Assembly (NCBI GenBank): GCA_022072055.1
Contig: JAJVIK010000007.1
Coordinates: 434,001 to 498,000, forward strand
Source of the DNA: a bacterium
GTDB lineage: Bacteria; Hinthialibacterota; Hinthialibacteria; OLB16
DNA: 64,000 bases
Direction of reading: 5' to 3'
Made by a program: the position numbers and the translations under genes. This document shows positions 48,283 to 63,623 of this stretch, piece by piece; the first letter of the stretch is position 1, and each line of letters starts with the position of its first letter. The notes under the pieces were generated by a model. The model had not been told where the DNA came from. It saw only the letters and a list, made by a program, of their open reading frames with translations, and searched no databases.

Positions 48283-48615
48283 GGCTGGCTCCTTTCAGCC
48301 TGAAGGCGCCCTATCCCGCCCCCAGGTTGGGTGGTTTGACACCCCACGCCTCGACCTTAAGCATCCGGTATGCCATTCGGCCTAGTGTTTTCGTCGACCT
48401 TCTGTATCTCCAGTTGTGGAAAGGGGTTATGACTCCTCGCTAAGCTGGAGCCAGGCCACAGCGGGAGCACTGGCGCCTTACCGGAATCGACGCCCGCGAA
48501 CGGTGGCTGTACGTAAACGGAAGCCCGACCGGCCGAATGGGTTGTCCATGACTTCGGTCCGGGTTTCCTGCCGTTTTTTGGGATTGGGGGCCTTGTTTGA
48601 AGCACTTGAGCCTCT
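48283..48615. other. intergenic region at left edge of the phage-like module
   Basis: About 390 bp up to 48671 with no supported gene. It contains the leader of the minus-strand LTXXQ-like gene and, at its right end, the hairpin that overlaps the portal ribosome site. I found no tRNA, integrase fragment or obvious attachment-site repeat matching 60700-60944. Confidence 0.5.
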
Positions 48616-48660
48616 TTTCCGCGTAAGGGTGGGGAGCCACTCAACGCTCCCACGCGGAAA
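48616..48660 (+). promoter_or_regulatory. hairpin covering the portal gene ribosome site
   Basis: TTTCCGCGT (48616-48624) pairs perfectly with ACGCGGAAA (48652-48660); an inner GGGAGC/GCTCCC stem (48632-48637, 48646-48651) stacks inside. The 3' arm includes GGAAA, part of GAAAGGA, the likely ribosome site for the ATG at 48672. Confidence 0.5.
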
Positions 48661-48671
48661 GGATCGAACGG

Positions 48672-49967
48672 ATGTCACTCTGGGATTGGATTGCTCGCCG
48701 GACAAACTCGGAGCCGTGCCGCGCGAGTGAGCTCTTGCGCGCGCTCCCAGCGGAACGTCACCCCGCCATCCCCACCCACCCCAAGGGGCATGGGTTTTCC
48801 GAACTCCAGCCGCTCGGAGGCGCAAGGTATGGCGGGTTCATCGAGCCGAGGGATTTCTCCCCGGAGCAGTGGCACCCGTTTCTCCGCTATCTGCGCGACC
48901 GGATTCCGGATGTGGCCGCGGGAGTCTGGGCCTGGGTGAGGCTCTGCTCCACCCGACGGATCGAGGAGCTGGTGGGAGGAACCGAGCTTGAGCGCGAGCG
49001 GGCGCGGGGAGTCCTTGAGGATCTGCAAGAGCGCTTGCTCGAAGGGTCCTTCGACCATCGCCCCGGTTTTGAGGGAATCCTGGAGCAGTTCTTCCAGTCG
49101 GCGTTTACTGTCGGGGCTTACGCCGGGGAGCTGGTGGCGCGCGAGGATCGGTCGGGACTCGCTCGCTTCCACCCGGTGGACCCCGCAACCATCCGTTTCA
49201 AACGTTATCCCAGCTCAGGGCGTCTCACCCCATATCAACTGCGACAGGATGGAACCCTGGTCGCTCTCCATGAACCCTCGTTCTTCTATTTCGGCCTCGA
49301 CACCGATGCCGGAAACCCCTATGGGCGCTCGCCGCTCGCGAGCCTCCCCTTCGTGATTCGTCTCCAGACCCAGCTCTTCGAGGATATGGGCAAGGCCGCG
49401 CACAACGCGGGTTACCCCACGCTGCATGTGAAATACCACGCCCCCGAACGCGAACCGGGCGAGAGCCTCGCGGACTATCAGAATCGGGTGCAATCCGATT
49501 TCGAATCGATCTCCACCGCGATGAAGACCCGCTCGCCGGAGAGCAACTTCCTCACCCAGCACAACATCGAAATCGAGTATGTCGGGCCAAGCGGCCAGAT
49601 GCTGCGCTGGCGCGAGACTCTCGAGACCATCAGCGAACAGGTGGTGGCGGCGTTGCATCTCGCGCCGTTCCTGATCGGGCGCAATTACGGCACCACCCAG
49701 AGTTGGGCGCGCGCGCAGTATGACCTCATGGTCAACAACGCCGCCTCGGTCCAGCGCGCGGCGGCCCGAATGGTGGATTGGATCGCCAACCTGGAACTCG
49801 CGCTGAGCGGCTCCCCGGTTCGGATGCGCTGCCGTTTTGCTCCCCACACCAGCTGGAACGATGTGGATGAGGCCCGCGCCCAGAGCCTGCGACTCGCGAC
49901 CCTGCTCAAGCTCCGAGACAACGGATTGATCGCGGAGGACCAGATCCTCGCGCGCCTTGAGGAGTGA
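48672..49967 (+). CDS. phage portal protein
   Basis: 431-aa portal protein, the dodecameric DNA-entry channel of the capsid. Supporting signals: GVWAWVRLCSTRRIEELVGG at the N-terminal side, ILEQFFQSAFTVGAYAGELV, LHEPSFFYFGLDTDAGNPYGRSPL (typical portal wing region), and ETISEQVVAALHLAPFLIG near the C-terminus. Length is in the normal range. First gene of a plus-strand module that ends with the terminase; the ribosome site lies in a hairpin. Confidence 0.85.
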   Translation: MSLWDWIARRTNSEPCRASELLRALPAERHPAIPTHPKGHGFSELQPLGGARYGGFIEPRDFSPEQWHPFLRYLRDRIPDVAAGVWAWVRLCSTRRIEELVGGTELERERARGVLEDLQERLLEGSFDHRPGFEGILEQFFQSAFTVGAYAGELVAREDRSGLARFHPVDPATIRFKRYPSSGRLTPYQLRQDGTLVALHEPSFFYFGLDTDAGNPYGRSPLASLPFVIRLQTQLFEDMGKAAHNAGYPTLHVKYHAPEREPGESLADYQNRVQSDFESISTAMKTRSPESNFLTQHNIEIEYVGPSGQMLRWRETLETISEQVVAALHLAPFLIGRNYGTTQSWARAQYDLMVNNAASVQRAAARMVDWIANLELALSGSPVRMRCRFAPHTSWNDVDEARAQSLRLATLLKLRDNGLIAEDQILARLEE

Positions 49968-50043
49968 GCGGCGAGTGATGGGGACCGCCTGGACAAGTGG
50001 TCCCTGGATTGAATCGTGGAAGGGATGGAAGAGGAGGAAACAG

Positions 50044-50757
50044 GTGGAAATCGGAACGGCTTCATTGAACCAGGAAAAGACTTGTGGGCGAGGCGGCAGC
50101 TGGCTGCAGCGGATTCAGGAGGGGCTGCCGCTCCACGTCCTGATCCGCGGGAGTCGCGGCCTGTTGCGGGCGAAGGATGAATCCATGCGACCCTGGGCGG
50201 AGGTCCGGGTCACGGGTGTGGATCCGGCTGACAGGCTCGGCCCTTTCGAGGTCACGTTGGAGGCCTTCCGGATGGCCGAGAGGCTCTCCGAGTCGGCGAT
50301 CGAGACCGAAGGATTCCGAAAGCTCTTGGGCGATCCGGCGGTCTGTCTCCGCCTGGTGGTCAACCATGACGCCGAGGGATGCCCCCTGGTCTCTCCCACC
50401 TGGGAGATCGAAGGGATGGAGGTGGTGGGTCGCCCTTGCCTTGCGGAAGAGGCCGGTGACCGCGCCTGGAAAGCGGCGCGCGCGGTTCCCTGCCGGGAGC
50501 TCCGAATCCACCGCCTCGATCCGCATGGGAACTGGTCGGTGAGCACGGAGCCGGGGCATCGCGATGGGATTCCCGCGTCGCCTGTCGAGGCGCTTCCGAT
50601 TCGGGATCGCTACACGGAGCTCAGCCGCCAGATTCCCGCTCGTCCTCGCGCGCTCCCCTTCGCGATCCCGCCGACGAAACCGGGCAGCCCCCGGGAGGAC
50701 TACGAGCCTTTCCGGATGTGCATCCGAACGAAGACCTCAAAGGAGGAATGCAGATGA
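50044..50757 (+). CDS. unknown protein between portal and cement gene
   Basis: 237 aa from GTG 50044, which follows AGGAGGAAACAG; an earlier in-frame ATG has no ribosome site. I recognise no domain: no protease triad motif (the prohead protease lies at 53584), Arg-rich, Trp- and Pro-rich at the C-terminus. By position it may be a head-assembly protein (scaffold or minor capsid). It overlaps the cement gene by 4 bp. Confidence 0.55.
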   Translation: MEIGTASLNQEKTCGRGGSWLQRIQEGLPLHVLIRGSRGLLRAKDESMRPWAEVRVTGVDPADRLGPFEVTLEAFRMAERLSESAIETEGFRKLLGDPAVCLRLVVNHDAEGCPLVSPTWEIEGMEVVGRPCLAEEAGDRAWKAARAVPCRELRIHRLDPHGNWSVSTEPGHRDGIPASPVEALPIRDRYTELSRQIPARPRALPFAIPPTKPGSPREDYEPFRMCIRTKTSKEECR

Positions 50758-51122
50758 GTCGAACAGTTGAGAATGTCGGGGTGGGAAGCGTCTACGCGAC
50801 CTTCGCCATCGACAAGACCGGATCGGATTTTGATCTGGTCGCGGCGGACGAAGGGAAGGCGGTCTCCCTTTCTGGAAGCAACGAGACCGATCTGGGAAGC
50901 GACGGCGGTGTGTTCCTTGGGCAGCTCGTGTCGGTCCAAGAAGATGTCGCGGTGGTTCAGGTGCGCGGCGTGGCGCGTGTCGCTTACAACACCGGCGCGG
51001 CCCCGAGCGTGGGCGGCGCGGTGGCGGTGGATGGCGCCGGCAAGGTGAAGGCCTCCGCGAGCGGTCGCGGATTGGTCCTCGCGGTGGACGCCGCGAGCGC
51101 GATGGTGGATGTGCTGCTCTAA
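50754..51122 (+). CDS. capsid decoration/cement-like protein (DUF2190-like)
   Basis: 122 aa, ATG 50754 after AAAGGAGGAATGCAG. The Gly/Val-rich beta sequence, with GKAVSLSGSNETDLGSDGG, VVQVRGVARVAY and ending LVLAVDAASAMVDVLL, resembles DUF2190-type head decoration proteins. It sits directly before the major capsid gene, as usual. Confidence 0.7.
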   Translation: MSRTVENVGVGSVYATFAIDKTGSDFDLVAADEGKAVSLSGSNETDLGSDGGVFLGQLVSVQEDVAVVQVRGVARVAYNTGAAPSVGGAVAVDGAGKVKASASGRGLVLAVDAASAMVDVLL

Positions 51123-51149
51123 GCGGCCTCAAGGAAAGGAGAAGTTGGC

Positions 51150-52214
51150 ATGCTCTATCACGAGAACGAACGCGGCGCCCTGCCCGCCGAATTGCGGCGC
51201 GCCGCGGAGATCCCCCTCACCGAGGACCTGCTGGTTCAGGCCCGCTCGCGCGGAACCAGCCTCACCGAGCTCCTGGAGGACCTCGATCCGACCGCGGGCG
51301 ATTCGGCCCTGGACGCCTTCGAGCGTCAACTGGCCCTCGCCGGAATCCGGGTTTCCGGTCCGAACGCGGACACGATCGACCGGTTCTTCGCCTCCACCGA
51401 AACCGCGGTGCTCTTCCCCGAGTATGTCTCCCGCTCGGTTCGCACCGGGATGACCGAGTTTCGCGCCCTGGATCGGATCCTCTCCGCTCGGACCCGGATC
51501 GACAGCGATGTGTATAAGACGCTCTACATGGATGAGGCCGCCTGGCCCGCCGCCGAGCGTAAGCTCGCCCGTGTCGGCGAAGGCGCGGAGCTCCCACGGA
51601 TCGACATCAAGTCCTCCGAGAACACGGTCCGCATCCACAAGTTCGGGCGCTACATCGAGGTGACTTACGAGGCGCTGCGCCGCAAGACCACCTCGGTGGT
51701 CGCGGTCTTCCTCCAGGCCATCGGCTTCCAGATTCAGAAGGACAAGTTCGAGGAGGCGCTGGCGGTTCTGGTGGATGGCGACGGCAACGGCAATGCCGCC
51801 TCGGTGACCAACACCGCCGCCGATGGGACGCTCACCTATGAGGACCTGGTGGAGTTCGCGCTCTCGTTCCAGCCCTACCAGTTGAACGTGATCGTGGCGA
51901 CTCCGGCGGTGGTGAAGACCATCCTCACCTTGGACGAATTCAAGGACCCCGCGGCGGGGATGAACTTCCAGGCCACCGGCGACCTGGTCACTCCGCTCGG
52001 GGCGCAGCTCATCCCCAGCAGCGCGGTGGCCGCCAACACCCTGATCGGATTGGACCGTCGCTTCGCCCTTGAGGAGGTCTACGAAACCGGCCTGGTCGTG
52101 GAGTCCGACCGCCTGATCCGGCAGCAGCTCGAAGGCACGGCGATCTCCGAGGTGGCCGGCTTCGCTAAGGTCATCCAGGACGCCTCGAAGGTGCTGGATA
52201 TCGATTGGGCGTAA
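51150..52214 (+). CDS. phage major capsid protein
   Basis: 354-aa putative HK97-fold capsid subunit. FFASTETAVLFPEYVSRSVR begins the N-arm to E-loop region; EVTYEALRRKTTSVVAVFLQ, the spine helix, and the P-domain segments VIVATPAVVKTILTLDEFK and LIPSSAVAANTLIGLDRRFA are recognisable. Typical length. It comes right after the decoration gene, with a tandem repeat array after its stop. Confidence 0.85.
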   Translation: MLYHENERGALPAELRRAAEIPLTEDLLVQARSRGTSLTELLEDLDPTAGDSALDAFERQLALAGIRVSGPNADTIDRFFASTETAVLFPEYVSRSVRTGMTEFRALDRILSARTRIDSDVYKTLYMDEAAWPAAERKLARVGEGAELPRIDIKSSENTVRIHKFGRYIEVTYEALRRKTTSVVAVFLQAIGFQIQKDKFEEALAVLVDGDGNGNAASVTNTAADGTLTYEDLVEFALSFQPYQLNVIVATPAVVKTILTLDEFKDPAAGMNFQATGDLVTPLGAQLIPSSAVAANTLIGLDRRFALEEVYETGLVVESDRLIRQQLEGTAISEVAGFAKVIQDASKVLDIDWA

Positions 52215-52224
52215 GCCCGGCGCC

Positions 52225-52395
52225 CGACCCCGAGCGCCGACAGGCCCGACACACGGATGGCGCCGACCCCGAGCGCCGATAGGCCCGACGCACGGATGGC
52301 GCCGACCCCGAGCGCCGATAGGCCCGACGCACGGATGGCGCCGACCCCGAGCGCCGATAGGCCCGACGCACGGATGGCGCCGACCCCGAGCGCCG
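52225..52395 (+). repeat. 39-bp tandem repeat array (five cores)
   Basis: The 39-bp unit recurs with core CGACCCCGAGCGCCG at 52225, 52264, 52303, 52342 and 52381, exactly in register; units 2-5 are near-identical and unit 1 carries two or three changes. It starts directly after the capsid stop at 52214 and is not within a gene. Confidence 0.95.
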
Positions 52396-52442
52396 TGCTC
52401 ACGGACGGCGCTCGGGGCTGTCTCACCCGCTCCGCGGGTTTT
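52384..52442 (+). terminator. double hairpin ending the repeat array
   Basis: CCCCGAGCGCCG (52384-52395) pairs with CGGCGCTCGGGG (52406-52417), a 12-bp perfect stem; then ACCCGC-TCC-GCGGGT (52425-52439) followed by TTTT. Plausibly a terminator or processing site between the capsid and connector genes. Confidence 0.6.
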
Positions 52443-52475
52443 AAGAAACTGAAAAGCGGAAAGTGACGAGATCCC

Positions 52476-52868
52476 ATGCCCTTCACCGACGAAGCAACGA
52501 TTCGCACCCACGCCGGGTGGGAGAACACCGACCTGGTGACAAACGCCCTGGTGACGCAGCGGCTCTCCAACGCGCACGAGCGGCTCTTGGATGAGATTGA
52601 CCCGGCGCATGCGAATTCGATCGATCCGGTGTTGAAACTGGCGGAAACCGAGCTCGCCACGGCCTTTCTTCTGCGCTCTCTGGCGACCGAATCCGGCTTC
52701 GAGGACCGTGAGGTGCGCACCGCGAACCTCACGCTGCGCGCCGGTGGACGCGCGCGGACCTTGCTGGAGCTCGCCGACTCCGAAGAGGCCGCCGCGTGGG
52801 CGCACGCCAGGCCCTTCCTTAAGACCGGCGCGACTCGGACTCCCCTCTGCCTGGTGGTTTCGGACTAA
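52476..52868 (+). CDS. head-tail connector-like protein
   Basis: 130-aa alpha-helical protein, MPFTDEATIRTHAGWENTDL at the start and two long helices, with NAHERLLDEIDPAHANSI and AETELATAFLLRSLATESG. This is the gp6/DUF1320-like connector pattern found after capsid genes of tailed phages. The assignment is by position and fold type, not by clear identity. Confidence 0.6.
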   Translation: MPFTDEATIRTHAGWENTDLVTNALVTQRLSNAHERLLDEIDPAHANSIDPVLKLAETELATAFLLRSLATESGFEDREVRTANLTLRAGGRARTLLELADSEEAAAWAHARPFLKTGATRTPLCLVVSD

Positions 52869-52872
52869 GCCC

Positions 52873-53556
52873 ATGGCTCGGATCGGAACCTTTGAACTGC
52901 CCCAAGACTCGACCCTGGCGGACCTCCGGACCGAGTTTGTCCTCGGCCGGGTCCGCCGGGTGGTGAGGATCACGACTGTCCTGTCCCGATTCTCGGGCCG
53001 AGCGGCTTTTGTCGCCGCGCTTGAGAACCTGGAGCGCGAGATCGAGCGGCTGGATCGCGGCGAGACCGATTTTTCGATCCGCGCCGGTCGACTCTTCAAC
53101 GGGCGACGCCGAAGACATGAGGTCGCTCGCGATGACGCGCGCTGTCTGGCCGCGCTCACCTTGGAGCTGCTCACCAACGACCGCTTCGAGCGGAGCGAGA
53201 CAGTCCGAACAGTCGCGGATTCGATTTCAAGCTCGCCCAAGATCTTGAACCTGGCGACCGAGGGAAACTGGACGGCGCTTCCCCGCGTGGAACTCACCTT
53301 CGGCCAACCGGTCTCCGAACCGACGCTCTCCTCCGGGGATTTTTCCCTCGAAATTCTGGGGGACTTCGCGCCCGGCGAGGTCTTGGTGGCGGACTCGGAG
53401 GCGCGCGTGGTCACGCGCAACGGGACCAACATCCTCGCGCAGACCTCGGGCGATTTCATCGAGCTCGCCCCGGGGGGAGCGACACTTGCTTATTCCGCGA
53501 CCGCGGCGCTCCATGACGCCGCCATTGAGGTGACCTGGCGGGATCGCTGGGTGTAA
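52873..53556 (+). CDS. distal tail (Dit)-like protein
   Basis: 227 aa, ATG 52873, 4 bp after the connector stop. The C-terminal 130 residues have a Dit-like ending: GNWTALPRVELTFGQPVSEP, GEVLVADSEARVVTRNGTNI, then GDFIELAPGGATLAYSATA and VTWRDRW. The N-terminal part holds charged helices (LENLEREIERLDRGETDFS). Expected at the tail tip of a siphovirus-type particle. Confidence 0.65.
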   Translation: MARIGTFELPQDSTLADLRTEFVLGRVRRVVRITTVLSRFSGRAAFVAALENLEREIERLDRGETDFSIRAGRLFNGRRRRHEVARDDARCLAALTLELLTNDRFERSETVRTVADSISSSPKILNLATEGNWTALPRVELTFGQPVSEPTLSSGDFSLEILGDFAPGEVLVADSEARVVTRNGTNILAQTSGDFIELAPGGATLAYSATAALHDAAIEVTWRDRWV

Positions 53557-53583
53557 GTCAATCCGCCACGGGAGGTAGATCCG

Positions 53584-54297
53584 ATGTTTCATATCCGCAC
53601 GCGGGGCCTGCTGCTTGATCCCAGCCCCGGCGGTTCCTTCGCCGAGGACGAGGAGCACATGCGCCTCATCAATCGCCTGGCCGCCAGTCCGCTCGAGCGC
53701 GATCAGGTCTACATCCGCAGCATGTATCTGTGCTCTTCGCAGGTGTGCGAGACCGATTGGCGCCGTTTCTCCGACCGCGCCCTCGAACAGATCCGCGACA
53801 AGGTGGTGGGGGAATCGGTCTTGGCCGGGCATGACAAGCGCTCGCTTCCGGTGGCGCGGTTCTTCAAGGCGCGGATTGTGGAGCGCCCGGAGGTCCCCGA
53901 TCCGGAAACAGGCGCGCCGACGCGCTGGGTGCGGGCCTGGTTCTATTGGCTCAAGGAGACCCAAGGGGCGCGCGACCTCGCGCTCAACATGGATGGCGGA
54001 ATCTACCGCGAGGTTTCGATCTCGTGGCGTTATCGGGGCGGGCGCTGCTCTCTCTGCGGTCGCGCCCCGCGAAGCTGCGCGCATGTCCCCGGCGAGGTTT
54101 TGGACGGCGCGCGCTGCTTCATCTGGATCGATGAAGTGGTGGATGTGCTTGAGGGTTCGCTGGTGTATCGCGGCGCGGACCGTGAAACCGGGATCGCCGG
54201 AGAGCGCCATCACGGTGTTTCCGAATCGGGAGTTGATCTGGAGCGATTGCTGCTCTTTGAGGCGCCGCTCCTTGTCGGCGAAGAGGCGCGCCCATGA
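53584..54297 (+). CDS. HK97-type prohead protease
   Basis: 237-aa putative capsid-maturation serine protease (herpesvirus-assemblin-like fold). Catalytic His lies in LAGHDKRSLPVARFFKA, and the nucleophile Ser in YREVSISW; the following Cys cluster (CSLCGRAPRSCAHVPGE) is a feature of many such proteases. Here it is placed after the distal tail gene, not beside the portal, which is unusual for a head gene. Good fit to the capsid gene upstream. Confidence 0.72.
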   Translation: MFHIRTRGLLLDPSPGGSFAEDEEHMRLINRLAASPLERDQVYIRSMYLCSSQVCETDWRRFSDRALEQIRDKVVGESVLAGHDKRSLPVARFFKARIVERPEVPDPETGAPTRWVRAWFYWLKETQGARDLALNMDGGIYREVSISWRYRGGRCSLCGRAPRSCAHVPGEVLDGARCFIWIDEVVDVLEGSLVYRGADRETGIAGERHHGVSESGVDLERLLLFEAPLLVGEEARP

Positions 54298-55082
54298 CAC
54301 GGGTCGGGAGCTACAACGCGGGCTTTGAAGGCCCCACGAGCAGCCTGTTCGTTTACGGTGAATCTCCGGTCACCTCCGCCAAGCTCAATCGCTGGAACGG
54401 AAACATCGAGGCGGGCTTCCGGTTGCTGCACCGCCTGGTTCGGATCCTTGCCGGCGGCGATTCGGCCCCGTATCTGGTCGGCAACGAGGGAACCGATCCG
54501 CTCAAGGTCTCCGCGCAGGCCACGCCCAGCCTCACGGTCAAGGTGGCCTCGGGGATTGCCCTCGGACCGACATACGCCATGGGCTTGTCCTCGGACGAAA
54601 CGGTCCCCGCGGCCGGAGCCTTTGTCGCGCCGAGCGGCAACCCTCGGATCGATTCAATCGGCATCCGCGAGACCGGCGAGTGGGTGATCGCCGCCGGAAC
54701 GGAATCCGCGACCCCTTCCGCTCCCCTCCTGGATCCCGATGTGGTCCGTCTCGCGGATGTCTACCTCCGAGTCGGGGCGACCTCGATCAAGAACAGCGAT
54801 GATGGAGTGAACGGTTACCTGATCGACCGACGACCGCGCAGGCTGTCGGCCCTCGCGCACCGTCATGTCGCGCCCGCGTCTCCTCCGGAGACTCCCAACG
54901 GCTCGGCAACCAACTTCTCAACCTCGGAGCGCTTTGTGGCGGGCACTTTGCGGGTGTATGTGAACGGCCTCGCGCAGCTTCCCTCAACACACTACACCGA
55001 GGATAGCGACCGCGAGGGCTACACCTTCCTCACGGCCCCCCCGAGCGGGTTTGTGATCCATCACGAGTACCAGCCGGGATGA
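54294..55082 (+). CDS. tail fibre / receptor-binding-like protein
   Basis: 262-aa protein. The C-terminal 80 residues read ETPNGSATNFSTSERFVAG, TLRVYVNGLAQLPSTHYTED, GYTFLTAPPSGFVIHHEYQP, a beta-rich motif frequent in phage fibre and baseplate proteins. The N-terminal part (GNIEAGFRLLHRLVRILAGG) may be trimerising. It overlaps the protease gene by 4 bp. Confidence 0.6.
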   Translation: MTRVGSYNAGFEGPTSSLFVYGESPVTSAKLNRWNGNIEAGFRLLHRLVRILAGGDSAPYLVGNEGTDPLKVSAQATPSLTVKVASGIALGPTYAMGLSSDETVPAAGAFVAPSGNPRIDSIGIRETGEWVIAAGTESATPSAPLLDPDVVRLADVYLRVGATSIKNSDDGVNGYLIDRRPRRLSALAHRHVAPASPPETPNGSATNFSTSERFVAGTLRVYVNGLAQLPSTHYTEDSDREGYTFLTAPPSGFVIHHEYQPG

Positions 55083-55133
55083 GCCGAAGCGGTGATCCAT
55101 GTCTGAAACGGCAGTAACGAAAGGAAAAAGAGG

Positions 55134-56120
55134 ATGCGGACCAAGAGATTTCTCATCAGTCTGACAGTGGGGCTGCTCCTGGGCGGCGGCGCCGCGCTTG
55201 CTCAGTGGCAGAAGATCGGGAAAGAGCAACTCCCCACGAATCTGGGGGACATCAACGCGGGGTTCCTCTCGGCCTCAAAGCTCAAGGTTCTGGATGGCGC
55301 CGGGAGTAACCATTACCTGTATGTGGGAAATGACAGCGGAACGAGCACGGAAGGCTTCCGCCTCCGGAACGATTCGAGCAGCGGGCAGAGCTATCTTTAT
55401 GTCCGCAACAGCCTGAAGTTCCAGTTCGACGCCAGTTCGATCTACGCGCGGGACCCGCTGGACTTCTTTGACGGGGATTCCCTTTCCTGGAGTTCGGATG
55501 ACGGCAGCCTGGGTTACAACGCGGGCACGAACCAGTTCCGCTTCGAGGACAGCTCGGATGTGACCAAGGTTTCATTCGACATGGATGACGGGTCCGGAGA
55601 TTTCGAGGGGCGTCTGGCCGTGGGCGGGACCTCCGCCCCCTTGGTTCTCTTCGTGGGCGCCTCCTCATATAACGCCGGGGGCACGGACTGGCGCTGGGAT
55701 TCCACTGGGGATTACATCGAGGCCACGCTCACGGGGGATAACGACTGCTCTTTCCCCATTCCCCACCTCTCCGGGGGAACCACGATCGCCTCGGTCCGTG
55801 TCTTCTGCTTCCTTTCCTCGGACGCCGACACCCTGAGCGCGAGCCTCAGAAAGCGAACGCATGACGCGGACGGCTCCCCCTCCGCCCCCACATCCACGAC
55901 CCTGCAATCCAGCGGCGCGCTCTCGCGCGCCTCCATGACCGCCCAGACCGGCTCGAATTACTATTTCGATCTCACCGGGGGATCCCTTCCTTACACGTTG
56001 ACCGGCGCGGCGGGCAATCTCGACGAACTGAAGCTGGAACTCAGCGGCAACCTCGACTCAGTGAGCAACGACCTTCGGGTCTATGGCTTCGCGGTGACTT
56101 ACCACGAAGTCACCCACTGA
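55134..56120 (+). CDS. secreted fibre-like protein with a signal peptide
   Basis: 328 aa after AGGAAAAAG. Residues 1-24 are a clear Sec signal (KRFLISLTVGLLLGGGAALAQ), which virion proteins normally lack. The body is Ser/Asp/Gly-rich beta sequence with fibre-like repeats (YLYVGNDSGTSTEGFRLRND, YVRNSLKFQFDASSIYARD). The C-terminal half resembles jelly-roll or lectin-type carbohydrate-binding folds only in composition. It lies within the phage-like operon. Confidence 0.6.
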   Translation: MRTKRFLISLTVGLLLGGGAALAQWQKIGKEQLPTNLGDINAGFLSASKLKVLDGAGSNHYLYVGNDSGTSTEGFRLRNDSSSGQSYLYVRNSLKFQFDASSIYARDPLDFFDGDSLSWSSDDGSLGYNAGTNQFRFEDSSDVTKVSFDMDDGSGDFEGRLAVGGTSAPLVLFVGASSYNAGGTDWRWDSTGDYIEATLTGDNDCSFPIPHLSGGTTIASVRVFCFLSSDADTLSASLRKRTHDADGSPSAPTSTTLQSSGALSRASMTAQTGSNYYFDLTGGSLPYTLTGAAGNLDELKLELSGNLDSVSNDLRVYGFAVTYHEVTH

Positions 56121-56155
56121 TCACGTCACACGGTTTCCGTTTCGGAGCAGGATTC

Positions 56156-56458
56156 ATGAGCCACACATCCAGCGGGGCGGGCGCCTGGCGGGCCGCGACC
56201 ATTTCCCTTCTCTCAGTAACCGCCACGGTCTTCGTGGGGTGGGTTCTCTTCGCGGGCAATGCAGTCTCGCGCGATGAGGTGATCCGTCTCATCTCCCGCG
56301 AAACCCCTTATCTCGAAGACCGCAAGGCGATCCAAGAGTCGCTGGTCCGCCAGGGCGCCACGCTCGACCGTTTGACCGAAGAGGTGCAACGCCTGCGCCT
56401 TCAGCAACAGCGCCTGGAGGCCAAGGTCGAGGCCGCCTTGGCGCGGCGGTCCCCGTAA
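56156..56458 (+). CDS. small membrane protein with coiled coil
   Basis: 100 aa: one transmembrane helix (about 15-35, ATISLLSVTATVFVGWVLFA) followed by a heptad-rich coiled coil (about 62-97, LDRLTEEVQRLRLQQQRLE). Looks like an inner-membrane spanin-like or tail-associated membrane protein; the exact role is unknown. Confidence 0.55.
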   Translation: MSHTSSGAGAWRAATISLLSVTATVFVGWVLFAGNAVSRDEVIRLISRETPYLEDRKAIQESLVRQGATLDRLTEEVQRLRLQQQRLEAKVEAALARRSP

Positions 56459-56464
56459 GAGCGG

Positions 56465-56644
56465 ATGCACTCGCGCCTCTTGGAATGGATTCGAAAACTG
56501 CTGGCCTCAAGCGAGGAAAGCGGGTTCTCGATCACGATCCGGATTCCGTATCGGACTGTCAGGAACGGGTTCCGAAAACTCATTTGCCGGAAAGGAAGGA
56601 GAACACAATGTCCAAGTGGAACAGCCGAAAATTCGCGGCGCTGA
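56465..56644 (+). CDS. possible small basic protein
   Basis: 59 codons from ATG 56465, six bp after the previous stop: it begins MHSRLLEWIRKLLASSEES and contains FSITIRIPYRTVRNGFRKL. No ribosome site is clear and it overlaps the next gene by 37 bp, so reality is uncertain. Confidence 0.3.
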   Translation: MHSRLLEWIRKLLASSEESGFSITIRIPYRTVRNGFRKLICRKGRRTQCPSGTAENSRR

Positions 56645-56802
56645 TCGCCACCCTGCTCACCAATTTCCTGGCCTGGACCAACGTGGATTCCGAGACCGCC
56701 CAGGCTTTCGCCACCGCCGCGGTCAACGCCCTCACCCTGGGGTACATCATTGTCCAAGGTTGGGTCGACGCGCGCGGGGGAAACACCAATGGCGGCCGCT
56801 GA
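56608..56802 (+). CDS. holin-like small membrane protein
   Basis: 64 aa, ATG 56608 after AAGGAAGGAGA. It has two short hydrophobic helices (KFAALIATLLTNFLAW, then TAAVNALTLGYIIVQGW) typical of small phage holin-like proteins. A matching endolysin gene is not seen in the module. It overlaps the next gene by 14 bp. Confidence 0.55.
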   Translation: MSKWNSRKFAALIATLLTNFLAWTNVDSETAQAFATAAVNALTLGYIIVQGWVDARGGNTNGGR

Positions 56803-57070
56803 GCGCTTCGAGGCTTTTTGGCGCAGACTCGTGGTCTTCCTCGGGGAGGTGATCGAGGTCACCGAGACGCTCGCCGAGCCTGGCGGTGGCCCCGCCAAGA
56901 AGAAGCACGCCCTTGAACTTGTGGAACGCTGGCGGAAGGAGCTGGGCATCCGTGTCCCCTGGCTGCCCGGACCCATCGAGCGCCTTGTGGTGCGACGCAT
57001 CGCCTCGGGTCTGATCGATGGGCTGATCGATTTCCTCAAAACCCTGAACCGCCAGACCCATCCGCTATGA
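56789..57070 (+). CDS. unknown helical phage protein
   Basis: 93 aa, ATG 56789 inside the holin-like gene. Charged amphipathic helices (AERFEAFWRRLVVFLGEVI, ALELVERWRKELGIRVPW) and a C-terminal hydrophobic helix (VVRRIASGLIDGLIDFLKTL). I know no family; possibly a holin or lysis regulator. It overlaps the hub gene by 4 bp. Confidence 0.5.
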   Translation: MAAAERFEAFWRRLVVFLGEVIEVTETLAEPGGGPAKKKHALELVERWRKELGIRVPWLPGPIERLVVRRIASGLIDGLIDFLKTLNRQTHPL

Positions 57071-58167
57071 TCGAACCAACAATCCGTCTCTTTGATCTCG
57101 ACGGTCGCCTGATCTGGGAGGGTCGGAGGCCCGCGCGAGTGGAAATCCTCGCGCGCTTCGGCGCGGAGGAGGCGAGCGCTCTCGTGGCCTTTCACCCGAG
57201 GGCGAGCCTCCCCGAGGTCGCCCTCGGCGATCCGATGGAGATTCGGTTCAATGGGATTCGCAAGTTTGTGGGCAAGGTCTCCGAGCTGCGGCGGGATTCG
57301 TCGGGCTTTCCGCTCAGTCTTCAGGGCGCGCGACGTCCGCGTCGCCTTTACCGCCATGAGGTTCGCGGTCTGTTCGAGAACCAGACCCCGACGGAGACGC
57401 TTTCCACGATCCTGGCGCCGATCTCCGGACCGAAGCCGAGCTACTCGGGACTGCCCGGCTCGACCCGCGTGTTGGACCGCTTGGATTTCCAGGGGCTGCC
57501 GCTCTTCCACGCCTTGGACTTGCTCGCCAAGCTCGCGGGCAACTGGTTGTGGTGGATCGATTGGGAGGAAGACCTGCATTTCATTCCGCCCAGCGATCCC
57601 GTGGAGCATGTTTGGCGCTTCGATCCGGACCGGATGGTTCTCCACCCGTGGGAACGTGACCGGACCATCAAGAACCTCTTCCGCCTTCACGGGGGAGTGC
57701 GAAACGGCGAGGAGTTCGAGCGTTTCTTCGAGTCCCCGGAGAGCCGCGAGCGATTCGGCTCGGTGGATGAGACCCTGTTCGCGCGCCCAATCACCACGGA
57801 AGGCCCCTTCGCGCATCTCCGTGAGGCGGTCCTTGAGGAGGCCCCCTGGCCCACCGATTATCGCGCGGTCGACCGATATGATGGAGACCTGACCGCAGGC
57901 TTCGGGGAGCGCTTTGAGCTCCGCGGCGCGGAGCTTCCGCCGGGGCTGAATGCCGGGGCCACTTTCCGGATCGCCGCCGAGGAGCTCGTTTGGACCGAGG
58001 GCGGAATGCGCGCGCGCTATCACGTTGCCGAGGGCTTGGAGTCCGCCTCGCGGTACACGCGCTATATCGACCACGAGCCGCGCGACGAGAACTATGTGGC
58101 CGCGCGCCTGGGGGCATTCACTCTCGATCTTTCGGCGCTGGACTCGGAGGCGCATCTCGACCCATGA
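57067..58167 (+). CDS. baseplate hub / tail-tip protein (gpD-like)
   Basis: 366-aa protein. FENQTPTETLSTILAPISGP, then VLDRLDFQGLPLFHALDLLA and WLWWIDWEEDLHFIPP are the pattern of late-control gpD/gp27-type hub proteins with an N-terminal beta domain (LGDPMEIRFNGIRKFVGKVS). Acts at the tail tip, where DNA leaves the particle. It overlaps the small-terminase-like gene (ATGA). Confidence 0.65.
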   Translation: MIEPTIRLFDLDGRLIWEGRRPARVEILARFGAEEASALVAFHPRASLPEVALGDPMEIRFNGIRKFVGKVSELRRDSSGFPLSLQGARRPRRLYRHEVRGLFENQTPTETLSTILAPISGPKPSYSGLPGSTRVLDRLDFQGLPLFHALDLLAKLAGNWLWWIDWEEDLHFIPPSDPVEHVWRFDPDRMVLHPWERDRTIKNLFRLHGGVRNGEEFERFFESPESRERFGSVDETLFARPITTEGPFAHLREAVLEEAPWPTDYRAVDRYDGDLTAGFGERFELRGAELPPGLNAGATFRIAAEELVWTEGGMRARYHVAEGLESASRYTRYIDHEPRDENYVAARLGAFTLDLSALDSEAHLDP

Positions 58168-58616
58168 CCGAACTCGAGGGGCGGGTCCGTCAACTGCTGT
58201 TCGAGGAGGGAATTTCCACGACCGAGGCCGCGCGGCGACTGCGGATTCCATCCGCCGAGGTGGTCTCGATCGCGGTCCGCGCCCGAAATGGAAATGGCGC
58301 TCCTCGCGCGGCGCGGCGCAAGCCCAAGCCGGAACCCGAGCTGCCCGCCGAACCGGGCGAGCAGATCGACCTGCTTCGCGCGCAGGTCCGACAGGCGCTG
58401 ATAGTCCGGACCCGCTCCGGCGAGGTGTCGGAGTTCCCCGCCGCCGCGCTGGTGCGCCTGTGGCAGTTGGTCGAGGACCCCAAGCTGCTCTCGGGCGGTC
58501 AGGAGGCGGAAGAGGAGCTCTTCGACATCCCGGAAGCGGTGAGGGAGGAGATTTTTCGGTTGCTTGACGAAGGCGCCGAAAAACGCTGTAGAATGCGGGA
58601 AACCGATCGGAGCTAG
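58164..58616 (+). CDS. terminase small subunit-like protein
   Basis: 150 aa, ATG 58164 overlapping the hub stop. N-terminal helix-turn-helix (GISTTEAARRLRIPSAEVVS, about 16-35), basic linker, then a helical oligomerisation region and acidic C-terminus. Together with its position before the large terminase it fits a DNA-recognising small terminase. Three bp separate its stop from the antitoxin gene. Confidence 0.6.
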   Translation: MTELEGRVRQLLFEEGISTTEAARRLRIPSAEVVSIAVRARNGNGAPRAARRKPKPEPELPAEPGEQIDLLRAQVRQALIVRTRSGEVSEFPAAALVRLWQLVEDPKLLSGGQEAEEELFDIPEAVREEIFRLLDEGAEKRCRMRETDRS

Positions 58617-58619
58617 CTC

Positions 58620-58904
58620 ATGACCACCATCCCTATTAGCCCCTCCACCGAGGAGACCCTGAAACGGCTTTCGGCGCTTCGCCACGAACCGGTTGAGGCG
58701 GTGCTTGCCGAGGCCGTAGAGGAGTTTCACAAGAAATGCCTGATTGCGGAAACCAACGACGCCTATCGCCGACTCAAGGAGGACCCCGAGGCGCGGGGAG
58801 AATGGGAAGAGGAAATGGCATTGTGGGACACGACGCTAATGGATGGATTGGATCCCAATGAGACCTGGAACGAGCTTCCTGTAAGGAAAGGCCCGAATGC
58901 CTAG
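58620..58904 (+). CDS. MazE-like antitoxin
   Basis: 94-aa acidic protein with a ribbon-helix-helix start (MTTIPISPSTEETLKRLSAL) and a toxin-binding acidic tail (WEEEMALWDTTLMDGLD). Eight-bp overlap with the following MazF-like gene. It is inserted between the two terminase genes. Confidence 0.78.
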   Translation: MTTIPISPSTEETLKRLSALRHEPVEAVLAEAVEEFHKKCLIAETNDAYRRLKEDPEARGEWEEEMALWDTTLMDGLDPNETWNELPVRKGPNA

Positions 58905-59256
58905 CAGAATGCCCCAAGAGGTCCCGCGCCGTGGAGAGGTCTGGTTAGCGGATTTGGACCCCTCGCGTGGGCACCAACAGGCCGGCACAAGACCGGTTCT
59001 TGTTCTGTCCCGCAATGAATTCAATTCGGGTCCCGCCAATTTGGCGATTGTTATTCCAATCACGACCAAGGTCCGGAAAATACCAACTTGGGTGGAGGTG
59101 GTTCCTCCGGAAGGGGGTCTGCTCTATTTGAGCGCCATCCTCTGCGAAGGAATCCGCTCAATTGCTTTGGACCGCTTGGTAAGAAGGCTTGGGCAGGTTG
59201 GCCCACAGACTTTAGTTCAGGTTGAGTTCACCCTTCGCGCTCTCCTCCAATTCTGA
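58897..59256 (+). CDS. MazF/PemK-family mRNA interferase toxin
   Basis: 119-aa toxin. PRRGEVWLADLDPSRGHQQAGTRPVLVLS, PITTKVRKIPTW and LLYLSAILCEGIRSIALDRL are MazF-fold blocks, including the Arg and Ser of the active site. Sequence-specific endoribonuclease. Its stop lies 22 bp before the large-terminase start. Confidence 0.9.
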   Translation: MPSRMPQEVPRRGEVWLADLDPSRGHQQAGTRPVLVLSRNEFNSGPANLAIVIPITTKVRKIPTWVEVVPPEGGLLYLSAILCEGIRSIALDRLVRRLGQVGPQTLVQVEFTLRALLQF

Positions 59257-59278
59257 ACTCCCTTCCCTTGTTTCAGCT

Positions 59279-60700
59279 ATGCCCCTCCCCCCCTCTCTCC
59301 TCCGCGAGTATTGCACCTCCCCCGCGCGCTTTGCGAAGTTGGTCCTCCAGATGGACCTCGCGGAGGCGCAGAGGCAGTGGACCGACTATTTCGGAAAGAC
59401 GCGCTTCTTCCACGCCGCGCCGCGGGATCACGGCAAGTCCACCCTTTACGCCTTCCTCCTCCCGCTCTGGGAGATGGTCCGTCGCCCGGAAGTGCGCATC
59501 CTCCTGGTCAGCAAGACCCTCGATCTCGCCAGCCGGTTCATCACCACCCTGCGCCGCGAGGTCGAGGCGAATCCGCGCCTCCGCCGTCTCTACGGCGACC
59601 TCAAGCCGGAAAAGCCGCGCGCCTGGAACCGCTACGCGCTGTTCCTCGAACGCGAGCGCAACATCCGCGAGCCGACCGTGGCCGCCATGTCCGTGCTCGG
59701 CTCCTGTGCCGGGTTGCGCGCGGACCTGATTGTGGCGGACGACATCATCGACAGCGAACTGTGCTGGTTCCGTTCGCAGCGGGATCGCGTCGAGCGCTGG
59801 TTCTTCTCCGAGCTCACCCCGGTGCTGGAAGCGGAGGGACGGCTGCTGGTGGTCGGCACCCGCAAGCACCATGATGACCTCTACGCTCACCTGATCGGCA
59901 ACCCGGCCTACTCCCACCGGATCGATCGCGCGATTCTCGATGAAGCTCACGGCCGGGTGCTGATGCCGGAGCGCTGGACCTTCGAGCGCCTCGTTGCGGA
60001 TCGCGAGGAAATCGGGACCGTGGTTTTCAACCGCGAGAAACAGAACCAGGTGATCGATGAGGGCACAACCCTGTTCCGTCGCGAGTGGTTGGAGAATTGC
60101 CTCGACCCCTCAACGGTTCTGGGGGGCGCCCCTCCCTCCGGGTGGGCCATTGTGCAGGGAATCGACCTTGCGGTGGTCAGCGACCCACACCGCGCCCATG
60201 AGCGGGACAGCGACTATAGCGCGGTGGTGACCGCCGCGGCGGCTCCGGACGGACGGATCGCGATCCTCGACCTGTGGATGGAGCGCGGGCTTTCGCCCGA
60301 GGCTCTCCTGGAGTCGCTGGTGCGACTTGGCGCGCGACATCGCCCACGGCTTGTGGTGATTGAAAACAACGCCTTCCAGCACTGGGTGGAGCGGGAGCTT
60401 CGCGAACGCTCGGACCTGCCGGTGATGGGCCACACCACCGGGCGCGCCAACAAGAGCTCATTCACCGACGGGCTCCCATCCCTGGCGGTGCTGTTCGAGC
60501 GTGGAAAGGTCACGCTCCCCGCGGGGGATGAGCGCAGCCGCCGAATGTCCGGTATGCTGATCGACCAGCTCCACGGCCTGGGGGCGGAGCGCCACGATGA
60601 CCTCGCGATGGCGCTCTGGTTCTCGGTGATCGCGGCGCGCGAGGTGATGGGCAGGAGGACCCCGGCGGTGGACCTGGGGGCGCTGGTGAGGAGGTTTTAG
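59279..60700 (+). CDS. phage terminase large subunit
   Basis: 473-aa DNA-packaging motor and nuclease. Walker A APRDHGKST (about 47-55), Walker B LIVADDI (about 140), the coupling motif VVGTRKHHDD (about 175-185). RNase H-like nuclease domain: first Asp in GIDLAVVS (about 284), Glu in VIENNAFQHW (about 355), and HDDLAMALW near residue 440. ATG 59279 is preferred; an upstream in-frame ATG is within mazF. All catalytic residues are present. Last gene of the module; two 44-bp repeats follow. Confidence 0.93.
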   Translation: MPLPPSLLREYCTSPARFAKLVLQMDLAEAQRQWTDYFGKTRFFHAAPRDHGKSTLYAFLLPLWEMVRRPEVRILLVSKTLDLASRFITTLRREVEANPRLRRLYGDLKPEKPRAWNRYALFLERERNIREPTVAAMSVLGSCAGLRADLIVADDIIDSELCWFRSQRDRVERWFFSELTPVLEAEGRLLVVGTRKHHDDLYAHLIGNPAYSHRIDRAILDEAHGRVLMPERWTFERLVADREEIGTVVFNREKQNQVIDEGTTLFRREWLENCLDPSTVLGGAPPSGWAIVQGIDLAVVSDPHRAHERDSDYSAVVTAAAAPDGRIAILDLWMERGLSPEALLESLVRLGARHRPRLVVIENNAFQHWVERELRERSDLPVMGHTTGRANKSSFTDGLPSLAVLFERGKVTLPAGDERSRRMSGMLIDQLHGLGAERHDDLAMALWFSVIAAREVMGRRTPAVDLGALVRRF

Positions 60701-60833
60701 AGCGGCTAACGGTATCATGTAGGCCAGGGGACGCGATGGAACGCGTCCCTCCAACGCTGCATTCCAGCCAGGGGACGCGATGGAACGCGTCCCTCCAACG
60801 CTGCATTCCAGTGAAAAATGCTCCAGGACCATG
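60699..60833. repeat. palindromic repeat element, copy A, with 44-bp tandem duplication
   Basis: Two identical 44-bp units (60724-60767 and 60768-60811), each with the hairpin GGGGACGCG-ATGGA-ACGCGTCCC. The flanks AGAGCGGYYAACG and TGARAAATGCTCC recur around copy B at 63623-63740. No gene is supported between 60700 and 60944. Confidence 0.8.
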
Positions 60834-60944
60834 TGGATTGGGTCGCGTCCTTGTGTCCACGACACGGGGTCGAGCTTGGGGCCTTACGATCTGTAGGCCG
60901 CCTCCCCTTCCTCCCCCCGCGTGATTCAAGCACAGTCAGGCGGT

Positions 60945-63623
60945 ATGCGCTCGCCGGTTCGCAAAGCCCTGCTCCTTTCGGCTCCTTTGCTCTTCCTGGG
61001 CGCCGGGTTCGTTGCCCAATGGGTCGCGCTCCGGCTCACACCGGAAGGACGTGTGATTCGCCTGCTTGCTCAGCCTCCATCCACGCTCAAACTCGCCACC
61101 CCGCTGTGGAACTTCCGCGTCTCGCTTCAGCCGGAATGGAAGACCCGCGAATTGAAGCAGGGAGCCGTGGAGTATTCCTGGAACGGTCTCCTCGATGCCG
61201 ACCCCAAGACTCCCGCGCTCGCGGTGTTTTCCGGAGAGAGGCGCCTGGCGCCCCTTTCCGAGGCGAACTGGAGGGCAGGAGAAAGCCAAGGGTATTGGAC
61301 TGTCCCCGGTTTGGAGACAACTCTCTGTCGCAATTACTTTTTCGCGGGGGACCACAGCCAGTATTTCCCAGCCCGAATCGACTGGGCCTCTCCGTACCTG
61401 GAATGGGAATCGCTGGCGATCAACAGCGATGGCGAGGGCATGACCTTGGAGGTTGCGCTCGGAACCATTCCGGAAGGGGCTGAGCCGATAGAGCCTCAAG
61501 AGGGTCCGGCCACCCTTCCCTTTGAGGTCATCTGGAGCGCCACCGTGACCGTGGGGGTTTCGGAATGGACCTCCCACCAGCTCCAGGCGCGGGGGGTCGA
61601 GGCGGGCGCCCACGCGCTTCGTCTCACCGCCAAGGGGACCTTCAGCACTCTCGACAAGACCGCCCAGCGGCAGTTCTTCCTGAGGAACTTCCGCTCGTCC
61701 GGCCCAACCGAGATTCGCGCGCGCCTCCCCAGAAGCGACCCGCCCCCCGAGGTCCGCTACACCCCACGAGACCGAGTCCGCGCGCTGTTCGCCGCGCCTC
61801 ACGCGCCGGAGTCTCGGCCGCAGACCTCCCCATGGGCGGTCTATGACGAATCCGAGCTTCTGGTGCGCCCCTTGGAGCTGGAGGGGCTGGTCCGGACCGC
61901 CCTCTTCCTTCCCACGCCGGGGAGCTGGGAGGTGACCACCCGGACGGAATCCGCCTCGGATCTGATCTTCTATCCGGCGTTCTATTCCTCGGAACGAGAG
62001 ACGTGGTTGTCCGGGCGGGTGATTGTCGAGGTCAGCCGGGAGAATTTGCCGGGTGTCACCTGGGAGATCGATCTCGACCCCTCCAAGGATGAAGGTTCCA
62101 AGCTCTGGAGCGAGGGCATTCGCCTTCCGCTGGTCGCGGAAGGCCCTGGGAGTCTCCAGCTCTCCTTCCGCTCCGCGCCTCCCAAGGAGCGCACAGGCTC
62201 GGAAACCGCCAAGGCGATTCCCTTCTTTCTCGGCGAGCCGATGCTCGTTCCGGCCAGGGACCGTCGCTCTCGCCATCCGGGAACCGCGCGTCCGGATATC
62301 TTGCTTCTCTCCATCGACACTCTCCGCGCGGATGCGGTCTCTGGGATCGGGGGAGGAGAGACCACCCCGTGGATGGATGATTATTTTGGAAGGGGCGGGG
62401 TCACCTTCACCCAGGCCGAGGCCCCCTCCAGTTGGACACTCCCCTCGCACGCCAGCCTGTTTCTCTCGCAGTATGTCGCCCGTCATGGGGTTCGGATGCA
62501 TTTTGATCGGGTTCCCGCCGAGACCGCCACACTCGCGGAGCGCTTCGCGGACCAAGGCTACGAAACCGCCGCCTTTGTGGACCGCGAGTTCCTGAACCAC
62601 CGTTTCGGTTTCCATCAGGGATTCGAACTCTACGACCAACGCGGCGGGCATTTCGCCTCGATCCTTCCGCGCTGCCTGGAGTGGCTTGGAAAACGGGACC
62701 GCGGCGCGCCGCTGTTCCTGTTTCTTCACACCTACGATGTCCATGATCCCTATGACCCGCCCGAAGCCTTCCGCGCGCGCTTTCTCCCCGCGGGTTCGAA
62801 ACCCTCCACCGAGGAGATCGAGCGGAGGGAGACCCAGATGACCACGCTCTACGGCGCCAACCAGGGACATCGCGAGCTCCCCGAAAGCGACGCCGAGTTC
62901 CTGCGCGCGCTCTATCTCGCCGAGACCGCGTATGTGGACAGCCTGCTCGCGGACTTCATCCATCAGGTGGAGGCGCGCGGTCTGCTTCAGGACCCGCTTG
63001 TGATCCTCCTCTCGGACCATGGCGAAGCCTTCCGCGAGCATGGGACTTGGCTGCACGGCTGGACCTTGTACGAGGAGGAGACTCGAATCCCGATCCTGAT
63101 CCGCTTTCCAGGCAATCGGCATCAGGGGAGGCGAATCTCGGCGCGTGTCAGTCTGCTGGACATCGCTCCGACCCTCTTCGAGATCCTGGGCTGGAGCATT
63201 CCCGAGGAGTGGCAGGGCGAGTCGCTGCTTCCCCGGATCGAAGGGATCGAGAATCACCCTTCCGAGAGGCCCCTTTACGCGGAACTCACACAAAGCGAGC
63301 GGGTGCTCGCCTCGGTCTGGAAGAGGCGGATGAAGTACATTGAAAACCGGACCCTCGAAGGGGCAAGCCCGGAGAATCCCAGGTTGGTGAACCGCGAGGC
63401 CTATGACTTGGAGACCGACCCTGGGGAGCGGAGGAACTTGGGCGGCGAGCGCCTTGAGGAGGTTTCGAGGGAGCTGGAAGCGGCGGCGAATAATTTCGCG
63501 GAGATGACCGCGCGTCAACGCGAGGAGGGGGCTTCCGCCGCCGCCACGTTGGATGCCGAAACCATCCAGGGTCTTCAGGCCATCGGGTATCTGCAGACCG
63601 GAACCGGGGCCGGGAAGGACTAG
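60945..63623 (+). CDS. sulfatase-superfamily protein with large N-terminal domain
   Basis: 892 aa; N-terminal hydrophobic segment (KALLLSAPLLFLGAGFVAQW) as signal anchor. Residues about 30-440 are an unrecognised, probably beta-rich domain. The C-terminal half is a sulfatase/alkaline-phosphatase domain: DILLLSIDTLRADAV (metal Asp), SSWTLPSHASLFLS at the nucleophile position, FVDREFLNHRFGFHQGF, HTYDVHDPYDPPEAF and LLSDHGEAFREHG. The nucleophile site has Thr in TLPSH, not the C/S-x-P-x-R of formylglycine sulfatases. Substrate unknown; possibly a lipid or glycan sulfo- or phosphotransferase. Confidence 0.85.
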   Translation: MRSPVRKALLLSAPLLFLGAGFVAQWVALRLTPEGRVIRLLAQPPSTLKLATPLWNFRVSLQPEWKTRELKQGAVEYSWNGLLDADPKTPALAVFSGERRLAPLSEANWRAGESQGYWTVPGLETTLCRNYFFAGDHSQYFPARIDWASPYLEWESLAINSDGEGMTLEVALGTIPEGAEPIEPQEGPATLPFEVIWSATVTVGVSEWTSHQLQARGVEAGAHALRLTAKGTFSTLDKTAQRQFFLRNFRSSGPTEIRARLPRSDPPPEVRYTPRDRVRALFAAPHAPESRPQTSPWAVYDESELLVRPLELEGLVRTALFLPTPGSWEVTTRTESASDLIFYPAFYSSERETWLSGRVIVEVSRENLPGVTWEIDLDPSKDEGSKLWSEGIRLPLVAEGPGSLQLSFRSAPPKERTGSETAKAIPFFLGEPMLVPARDRRSRHPGTARPDILLLSIDTLRADAVSGIGGGETTPWMDDYFGRGGVTFTQAEAPSSWTLPSHASLFLSQYVARHGVRMHFDRVPAETATLAERFADQGYETAAFVDREFLNHRFGFHQGFELYDQRGGHFASILPRCLEWLGKRDRGAPLFLFLHTYDVHDPYDPPEAFRARFLPAGSKPSTEEIERRETQMTTLYGANQGHRELPESDAEFLRALYLAETAYVDSLLADFIHQVEARGLLQDPLVILLSDHGEAFREHGTWLHGWTLYEEETRIPILIRFPGNRHQGRRISARVSLLDIAPTLFEILGWSIPEEWQGESLLPRIEGIENHPSERPLYAELTQSERVLASVWKRRMKYIENRTLEGASPENPRLVNREAYDLETDPGERRNLGGERLEEVSRELEAAANNFAEMTARQREEGASAAATLDAETIQGLQAIGYLQTGTGAGKD

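Follow-up and report, generated by a model that had tools for sequence, protein, structure and literature searches.

A strong RNA hairpin marks the 3' end of a major capsid gene in the 64,000-nucleotide stretch of Hinthialibacterota DNA analyzed here (the window), and hairpins of mostly unrelated sequence recur at this junction in related genomes. We consider the chances evenly balanced that the hairpin is the working part of the junction and that the 39-bp tandem array between it and the capsid stop codon is a product of slippage there. The array is genuine and its origin ordinary, and the adjoining hairpin is of greater interest than the array. The genes around both seem to form a capsid cluster that has been domesticated and passed on vertically, most like a gene transfer agent (GTA).

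The array and its hairpin

The features of the cluster are as follows, all on the forward strand.

48672..49967, +, portal protein gene (PF06074, phrog_3753)
50718..51122, +, virion structural (decoration-like) gene, conserved core (phrog_4588)
51150..52214, +, major capsid (major head) protein gene (PF25209, E 8e-15; phrog_3922, E 6.1e-83; HK97-type by match name)
52219..52395, +, 39-bp tandem array: full units at 52226, 52265, 52304, and 52343; partial fifth unit at 52382-52395
52384..52417, +, terminal hairpin: 13-bp stem, 52384-52396 with 52405-52417; -32.2 kcal/mol (52382-52420)
52425..52442, +, second short stem-loop, weakly terminator-like: 52425-52430 with 52434-52439, then a T-run
52476..52868, +, putative head-tail connector gene, by position; the 12 related loci have homologues in this position
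52873..53556, +, tail (Dit-like) gene, conserved core (phrog_33 and phrog_5577 on the longer frame 52708-53553)
53584..54297, +, conserved core gene of unknown function (phrog_16951)
59222..60700, +, terminase large subunit (TerL) gene (phrog_38, E 4.8e-74)

The array begins 5 bases 3' of the capsid stop codon and was called by TRF at 52219-52395 with a period of 39, 4.5 copies, 97% matches, and a score of 331. The 12-mer CCCCGAGCGCCG occurs within the window five times on the forward strand (52228, 52267, 52306, 52345, and 52384) and once on the reverse strand (52406-52417), which is its sole complement in the window; the mean chance expectation there is 0.09. The TRF call, the 12-mer counts, and the alignment of units thus agree with a sequence-only reading of this DNA, which had described 39-bp tandem repeats carrying one arm of a downstream hairpin, with five copies of the 12-mer and a single complement. 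That reading also called units 2 to 5 nearly identical. This holds for units 2 to 4, which are identical (39/39, with unit 1 matching each at 37/39), but not for the fifth, of which there are only 14 bp (52382-52395) before the hairpin loop.

Array and hairpin are confined to a single site in their own genome, the only one from the source genus in the collection searched. The 39-bp unit had no match in the viral contigs searched, and no similar repeat occurs in the gaps of the relatives' loci compared. Tandem arrays as such are no rarity in the genome, TRF having listed 46 rows over 400 kb of the contig that carries the window. Eight of nine arrays chosen by hand from the 46 lie under frames of at least 252 codons, a weak criterion because the window array itself sits under a 776-codon antisense frame. 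Two other arrays are worth recording: a perfect 44-bp x 2 tandem repeat 3' of the terminase gene (60723-60811), with a 9-bp hairpin per unit and no other site in the genome, and an 82-bp x 3.5 array (C2:160583-160869; 99% matches) with a hairpin within its unit.

Folding of the region as RNA, which the sequence-only reading had proposed, gave a strong structure in which the terminal copy of the 12-mer forms the hairpin. With a folding energy of -126.9 kcal/mol, where shuffles average -104.3 (z -4.92), the 236-nt RNA surpasses 200 of 200 dinucleotide shuffles; folded as DNA, the region has a z of -4.82.

The hairpin has the GC-rich stem-loop of an intrinsic terminator, and the class assignment fails on the U-run, with only 3 T in the 8 nt after the main stem. 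The nearby T-run (52439-52442) belongs to the small second stem-loop. A consensus terminator scan, which found 10 sites against the 10.0 expected from shuffles, listed nothing at the array or at the second stem-loop. No Rfam family reached its gathering score within the window, and no sigma-70-type consensus promoter was found in 48500-61500.

Recurrence of the hairpin at the capsid junction

The phylum, named as Candidatus Hinthialibacterota in PMC11382960 and also in NCBI, is represented by 14 species genomes in the collection searched. The capsid gene is present as a single copy in 13 of them; the remaining genome (G011, 1,260 contigs) had no capsid match and was excluded from all gap counts. 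The order of six genes (decoration, capsid, connector, Dit-like, 53584, and 54294) is conserved across the 13 loci, one of which (L030, from G008) is truncated and has lost the decoration gene to the cut.

The gap between the capsid and connector genes folds at a z of -2.6 or below in 11 of these 13 genomes, and the hairpin sequences are mostly unrelated from one genome to another. In 9 of the 13, the 5' end of the hairpin lies at +2 to +17 from the capsid stop. We compared junctions using a criterion of at least 9 bp and -23 kcal/mol or stronger within 110 nt of the stop, which the capsid gene passed in 9/13 cases and five other core genes in 4/64 (Fisher p 2.5e-6, for loci that are related and so not independent). 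G012, G003, G004, and the window fail it, the window because the array displaces its hairpin beyond the 110 nt. G013, the closest relative with a capsid 77% identical, passes with an imperfect stem; its gap folds weakly (z -0.51), and the G004 gap has no hairpin (z +2.38). The weak fold in one genome and the lack of one in the other mean that the hairpin is not indispensable. The G004 gap does hold a 14-bp x 2.7 tandem repeat (L025:11251-11288).

More distant relatives of the capsid gene were ranked by how their capsid 3' spot compared with the rest of their own contig, using the best 80 of 533 and the best 80 of 167 loci, with the capsid frame recognizable in 159/160. The spot fell in the top 5% for hairpins in 23/71 Clostridial loci and 15/79 viral loci. 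The tendency toward a hairpin 3' of the capsid gene is thus wider than the phylum and is not universal.

Origin of the array

Each unit shares with the terminal hairpin the 5' arm GACCCCGAGCGCCG, followed by CACGGAyGGCG after a loop that is 8 nt longer, and lacks the outer half of the hairpin's 3' arm. The flank before unit 1 also reads GGCGCC. Replication may have slipped between GGCGC in the 3' arm of the hairpin and GGCGC(C) upstream of unit 1, and each such event would have added 39 bp. The array looks like a slippage product at an older hairpin, a direction of change that we infer from one array, because the window hairpin lies at +170, or +14 plus four units (4 x 39, 156 nt), and subtracting those units puts it at +14, in the range of its relatives.

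Function of the junction and alternative explanations

Assembling one capsid takes hundreds of capsid subunits and roughly a dozen connectors. Attenuator-like action of the hairpin is the likeliest reading, and its probability is close to that of a coin toss. RNA polymerase would partly stop at the hairpin, or exonucleases would be blocked by it, and capsid message would exceed connector and tail message from one promoter, in keeping with particle stoichiometry. The GC-rich folds of the array may add pausing or termination, by analogy with the Caulobacter GTA, in which case an anti-terminator would be needed for full expression. The array copies may thus reinforce the hairpin while being a by-product in origin. 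Several observations count against this explanation: the weak or absent hairpin in G013 and G004, the few U-runs (at least 5 T in the 8 nt after the hairpin in only 2/13 genomes), and the lack of a terminator-scan site. Neutral capture of palindromes in a longer capsid-to-connector gap would also enrich hairpins there. The literature searched on terminators 3' of capsid genes offered nothing direct.

Other readings give the array itself a role. The sequence-only reading took the five identical 12-mers and their one complement to mean that any copy might pair, so that copy number would set the size of a variable loop or supply decoys. The pairing probabilities led us to reject this model: in the ensemble of 52180-52475, the complement (52406-52417) pairs with copy 5 at a probability of 0.996 and with each of copies 1 to 4 at 0.0000. 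The energy penalty for keeping copy 5 unpaired is 18.5 kcal/mol; for any of the others it is 10.9 to 12.5 kcal/mol, because those copies pair within the array. Since copies 1 to 4 fold among themselves and copy 5 alone pairs with the complement, the array does not provide a choice of arms, and interchangeable pairing is extremely improbable. What stands of the proposal that termination is tuned between the capsid and connector genes is that a strong hairpin is placed where expression could be tuned and recurs there in relatives; what falls is the array as a supply of alternative arms. Programmed readthrough into a minor capsid protein that carries a repetitive tail would suit an array sharing the reading frame of the capsid gene (39 bp being 13 codons), in which no stop occurs for 83 codons past the TAA (frame 0, to 52466), and T7-like phages do frameshift to an elongated minor capsid protein (PMC2579914). 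Yet two of three frames are open through the array, which makes an open frame unsurprising, the capsid proteins of 12 aligned relatives terminate close to the same point, and no similar repeat occurs in their gaps. We rejected readthrough on these grounds as very improbable. Nor is it much less improbable that the units are protein-binding iterons, that is, DNA sites for a cluster regulator or packaging protein. Their regular spacing, three identical copies, and single genomic place would fit such sites, whereas their position inside a structural operon devoid of a consensus sigma-70-type promoter (48500-61500) and their absence from relatives do not.

A neutral origin, in which palindromes and slippage arrays with no function accumulate in the only gap of the cluster that tolerates insertions, would account for a different set of observations. 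The hairpin is a dispersed palindrome in two lineages, with 28 matches in the G012 genome and with 2, 16, and 9 places in G008, G009, and G010, respectively. The capsid-to-connector gap ranges from 54 to 380 nt, while the next junction, between the connector and Dit-like genes, is tight (-4 to 39 nt). A further array whose units each bear a hairpin is found at another site of the contig (C2:160583), and the tandem repeat in the G004 gap comes without a hairpin. Set against this are the 9 of 13 hairpins that start 2 to 17 nt after the capsid stop, recurring with unrelated sequences, and the top-5% hairpins at the same spot in the best-match sets of Clostridial and viral loci. We regard neutrality as possible, if on the doubtful side. 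Should the attenuator-like reading be true, a phylum-kept operon that holds a hairpin at one junction while its sequence turns over completely would amount to a natural experiment on the capsid-to-connector ratio.

The capsid cluster and its inheritance

The portal, capsid, tail, and terminase genes span about 12 kb (48672-60700) with host-type genes on either side; neighbors of the cluster include a phosphodiesterase, a metal-resistance-like protein, and a sulfatase. The putative connector (52476-52868) has no Pfam or PHROG family match. No integrase, repressor, or replication gene was found among the cluster proteins scanned, many of which match nothing. The product of 53584-54297 is perhaps a protease or scaffold protein, because its Clostridial relatives lie between the portal and capsid genes. 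A PemK/MazF-family toxin gene (58897-59256) with a small upstream partner (58620-58904) lies inside the cluster, just 5' of the terminase gene.

Distances among capsid proteins follow those of RpoB, for which frames were taken by tblastn (Mantel r 0.955; 0/5000 permutations). In family f3, host genes such as those for SAICAR synthetase and an NADH-dehydrogenase-like oxidoreductase flank the cluster in several genera. Because of the RpoB-following distances and the shared host flanking genes, the cluster is, on comparative sequence grounds, vertically inherited and not the outcome of repeated infection. TerL matches were obtained in only 4/14 genomes, one of them at 26% identity, and a portal homologue lies beside the capsid gene in 3/12 related loci; these functions are therefore split, replaced, or missing elsewhere in the phylum.

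Outside the phylum, the nearest capsid relatives among the matches listed are in Clostridia. The capsid family occurs in 70/200 genomes of one Clostridial family (once in 69 and as two partial matches in the other), and 16/16 Clostridial genomes picked for carrying it have one copy each. Most Clostridial loci run portal, 53584-homologue, (decoration), and capsid. In the 71 Clostridial loci among the best 80 of 533 (L040-L110), a portal gene was found in 67 and a 53584-homologue in 68, while the profiles for the connector, Dit-like, 54294, and terminase genes had no hits. The different order suggests that the 53584-54297 gene moved downstream in Hinthialibacterota relative to Clostridia. A search of viral contigs with the single capsid protein gave no match; with the capsid alignment, it gave 167 confirmed loci, the best 80 of which were kept. 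One record, MT835508.1 (L232), a human-fecal "Bacteriophage sp." entry, carries a TerL-portal-protease-capsid cluster whose capsid belongs to the family seen in the window, surrounded by what is plainly bacterial chromosome (SecY, ABC transporter, and ApbE), which fits packaged host DNA or contamination. Its gene at the place of the 53584-homologue matches a phage serine protease family weakly.

Comparison with known systems

Measured against what characterizes GTAs, the cluster has vertical inheritance and a single copy (13/14 genomes; Mantel r 0.955). The head, tail, and packaging set gives a mixed picture, with portal and TerL genes in the window, TerL matches in 4/14 genomes, and a portal beside the capsid gene in 3/12 related loci. 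Like RcGTA, CcGTA, and FpGTA, it is a single-copy, host-inherited capsid and tail cluster whose scanned proteins include no integrase, repressor, or replication protein. Unlike them, it is known from its genes alone, and its likeness to FpGTA is one of organization.

In T7-like phages, the terminator T-phi lies 3' of the capsid gene. The hairpin in the window likewise lies just 3' of the most abundant structural gene, but it has a poor U-run, and a tandem array intervenes between the stop codon and the hairpin. Dispersed palindromes of the REP type are also found shortly 3' of stop codons, and the hairpins of G012 and G008 to G010 are such elements, whereas the hairpin and array of the window occupy one genomic place.

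PMC12946183 describes FpGTA as split in two operons, to which the apparent splitting of cluster functions elsewhere in the phylum is similar, and reports GTA-like packaging for Oscillospiraceae and Ruminococcaceae. The cluster described here would be a candidate GTA in a phylum with none found described in the literature searched.

The closest published parallel is terGTA of the Caulobacter crescentus GTA cluster (PMC11150451), a set of three GC-rich direct repeats, each 150 bp long, with inverted repeats. In that work, terGTA was identified as a terminator by lacZ fusion, with the reporter cut to background, and GafZ was found to let some polymerases through it. What the window has in common with this system is a structural cluster of phage origin, of GTA status as we infer, that contains GC-rich direct repeats with inverted repeats. 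The differences are that terGTA comes after the first gene and is bypassed through GafZ, while the 39-bp units follow the capsid gene, are putative in role, and have no anti-terminator identified. By extension of the parallel, one might envision a phylum-wide GTA in which the capsid gene ends in a replaceable terminator, rebuilt from a dispersed element, a de novo hairpin, or a slippage array, and in which an anti-terminator would switch expression from capsid only to the whole particle, as with terGTA and GafZ. We think this unlikely as a whole. If true, it would provide a second case of GC-rich tandem repeats inside a GTA-type cluster.
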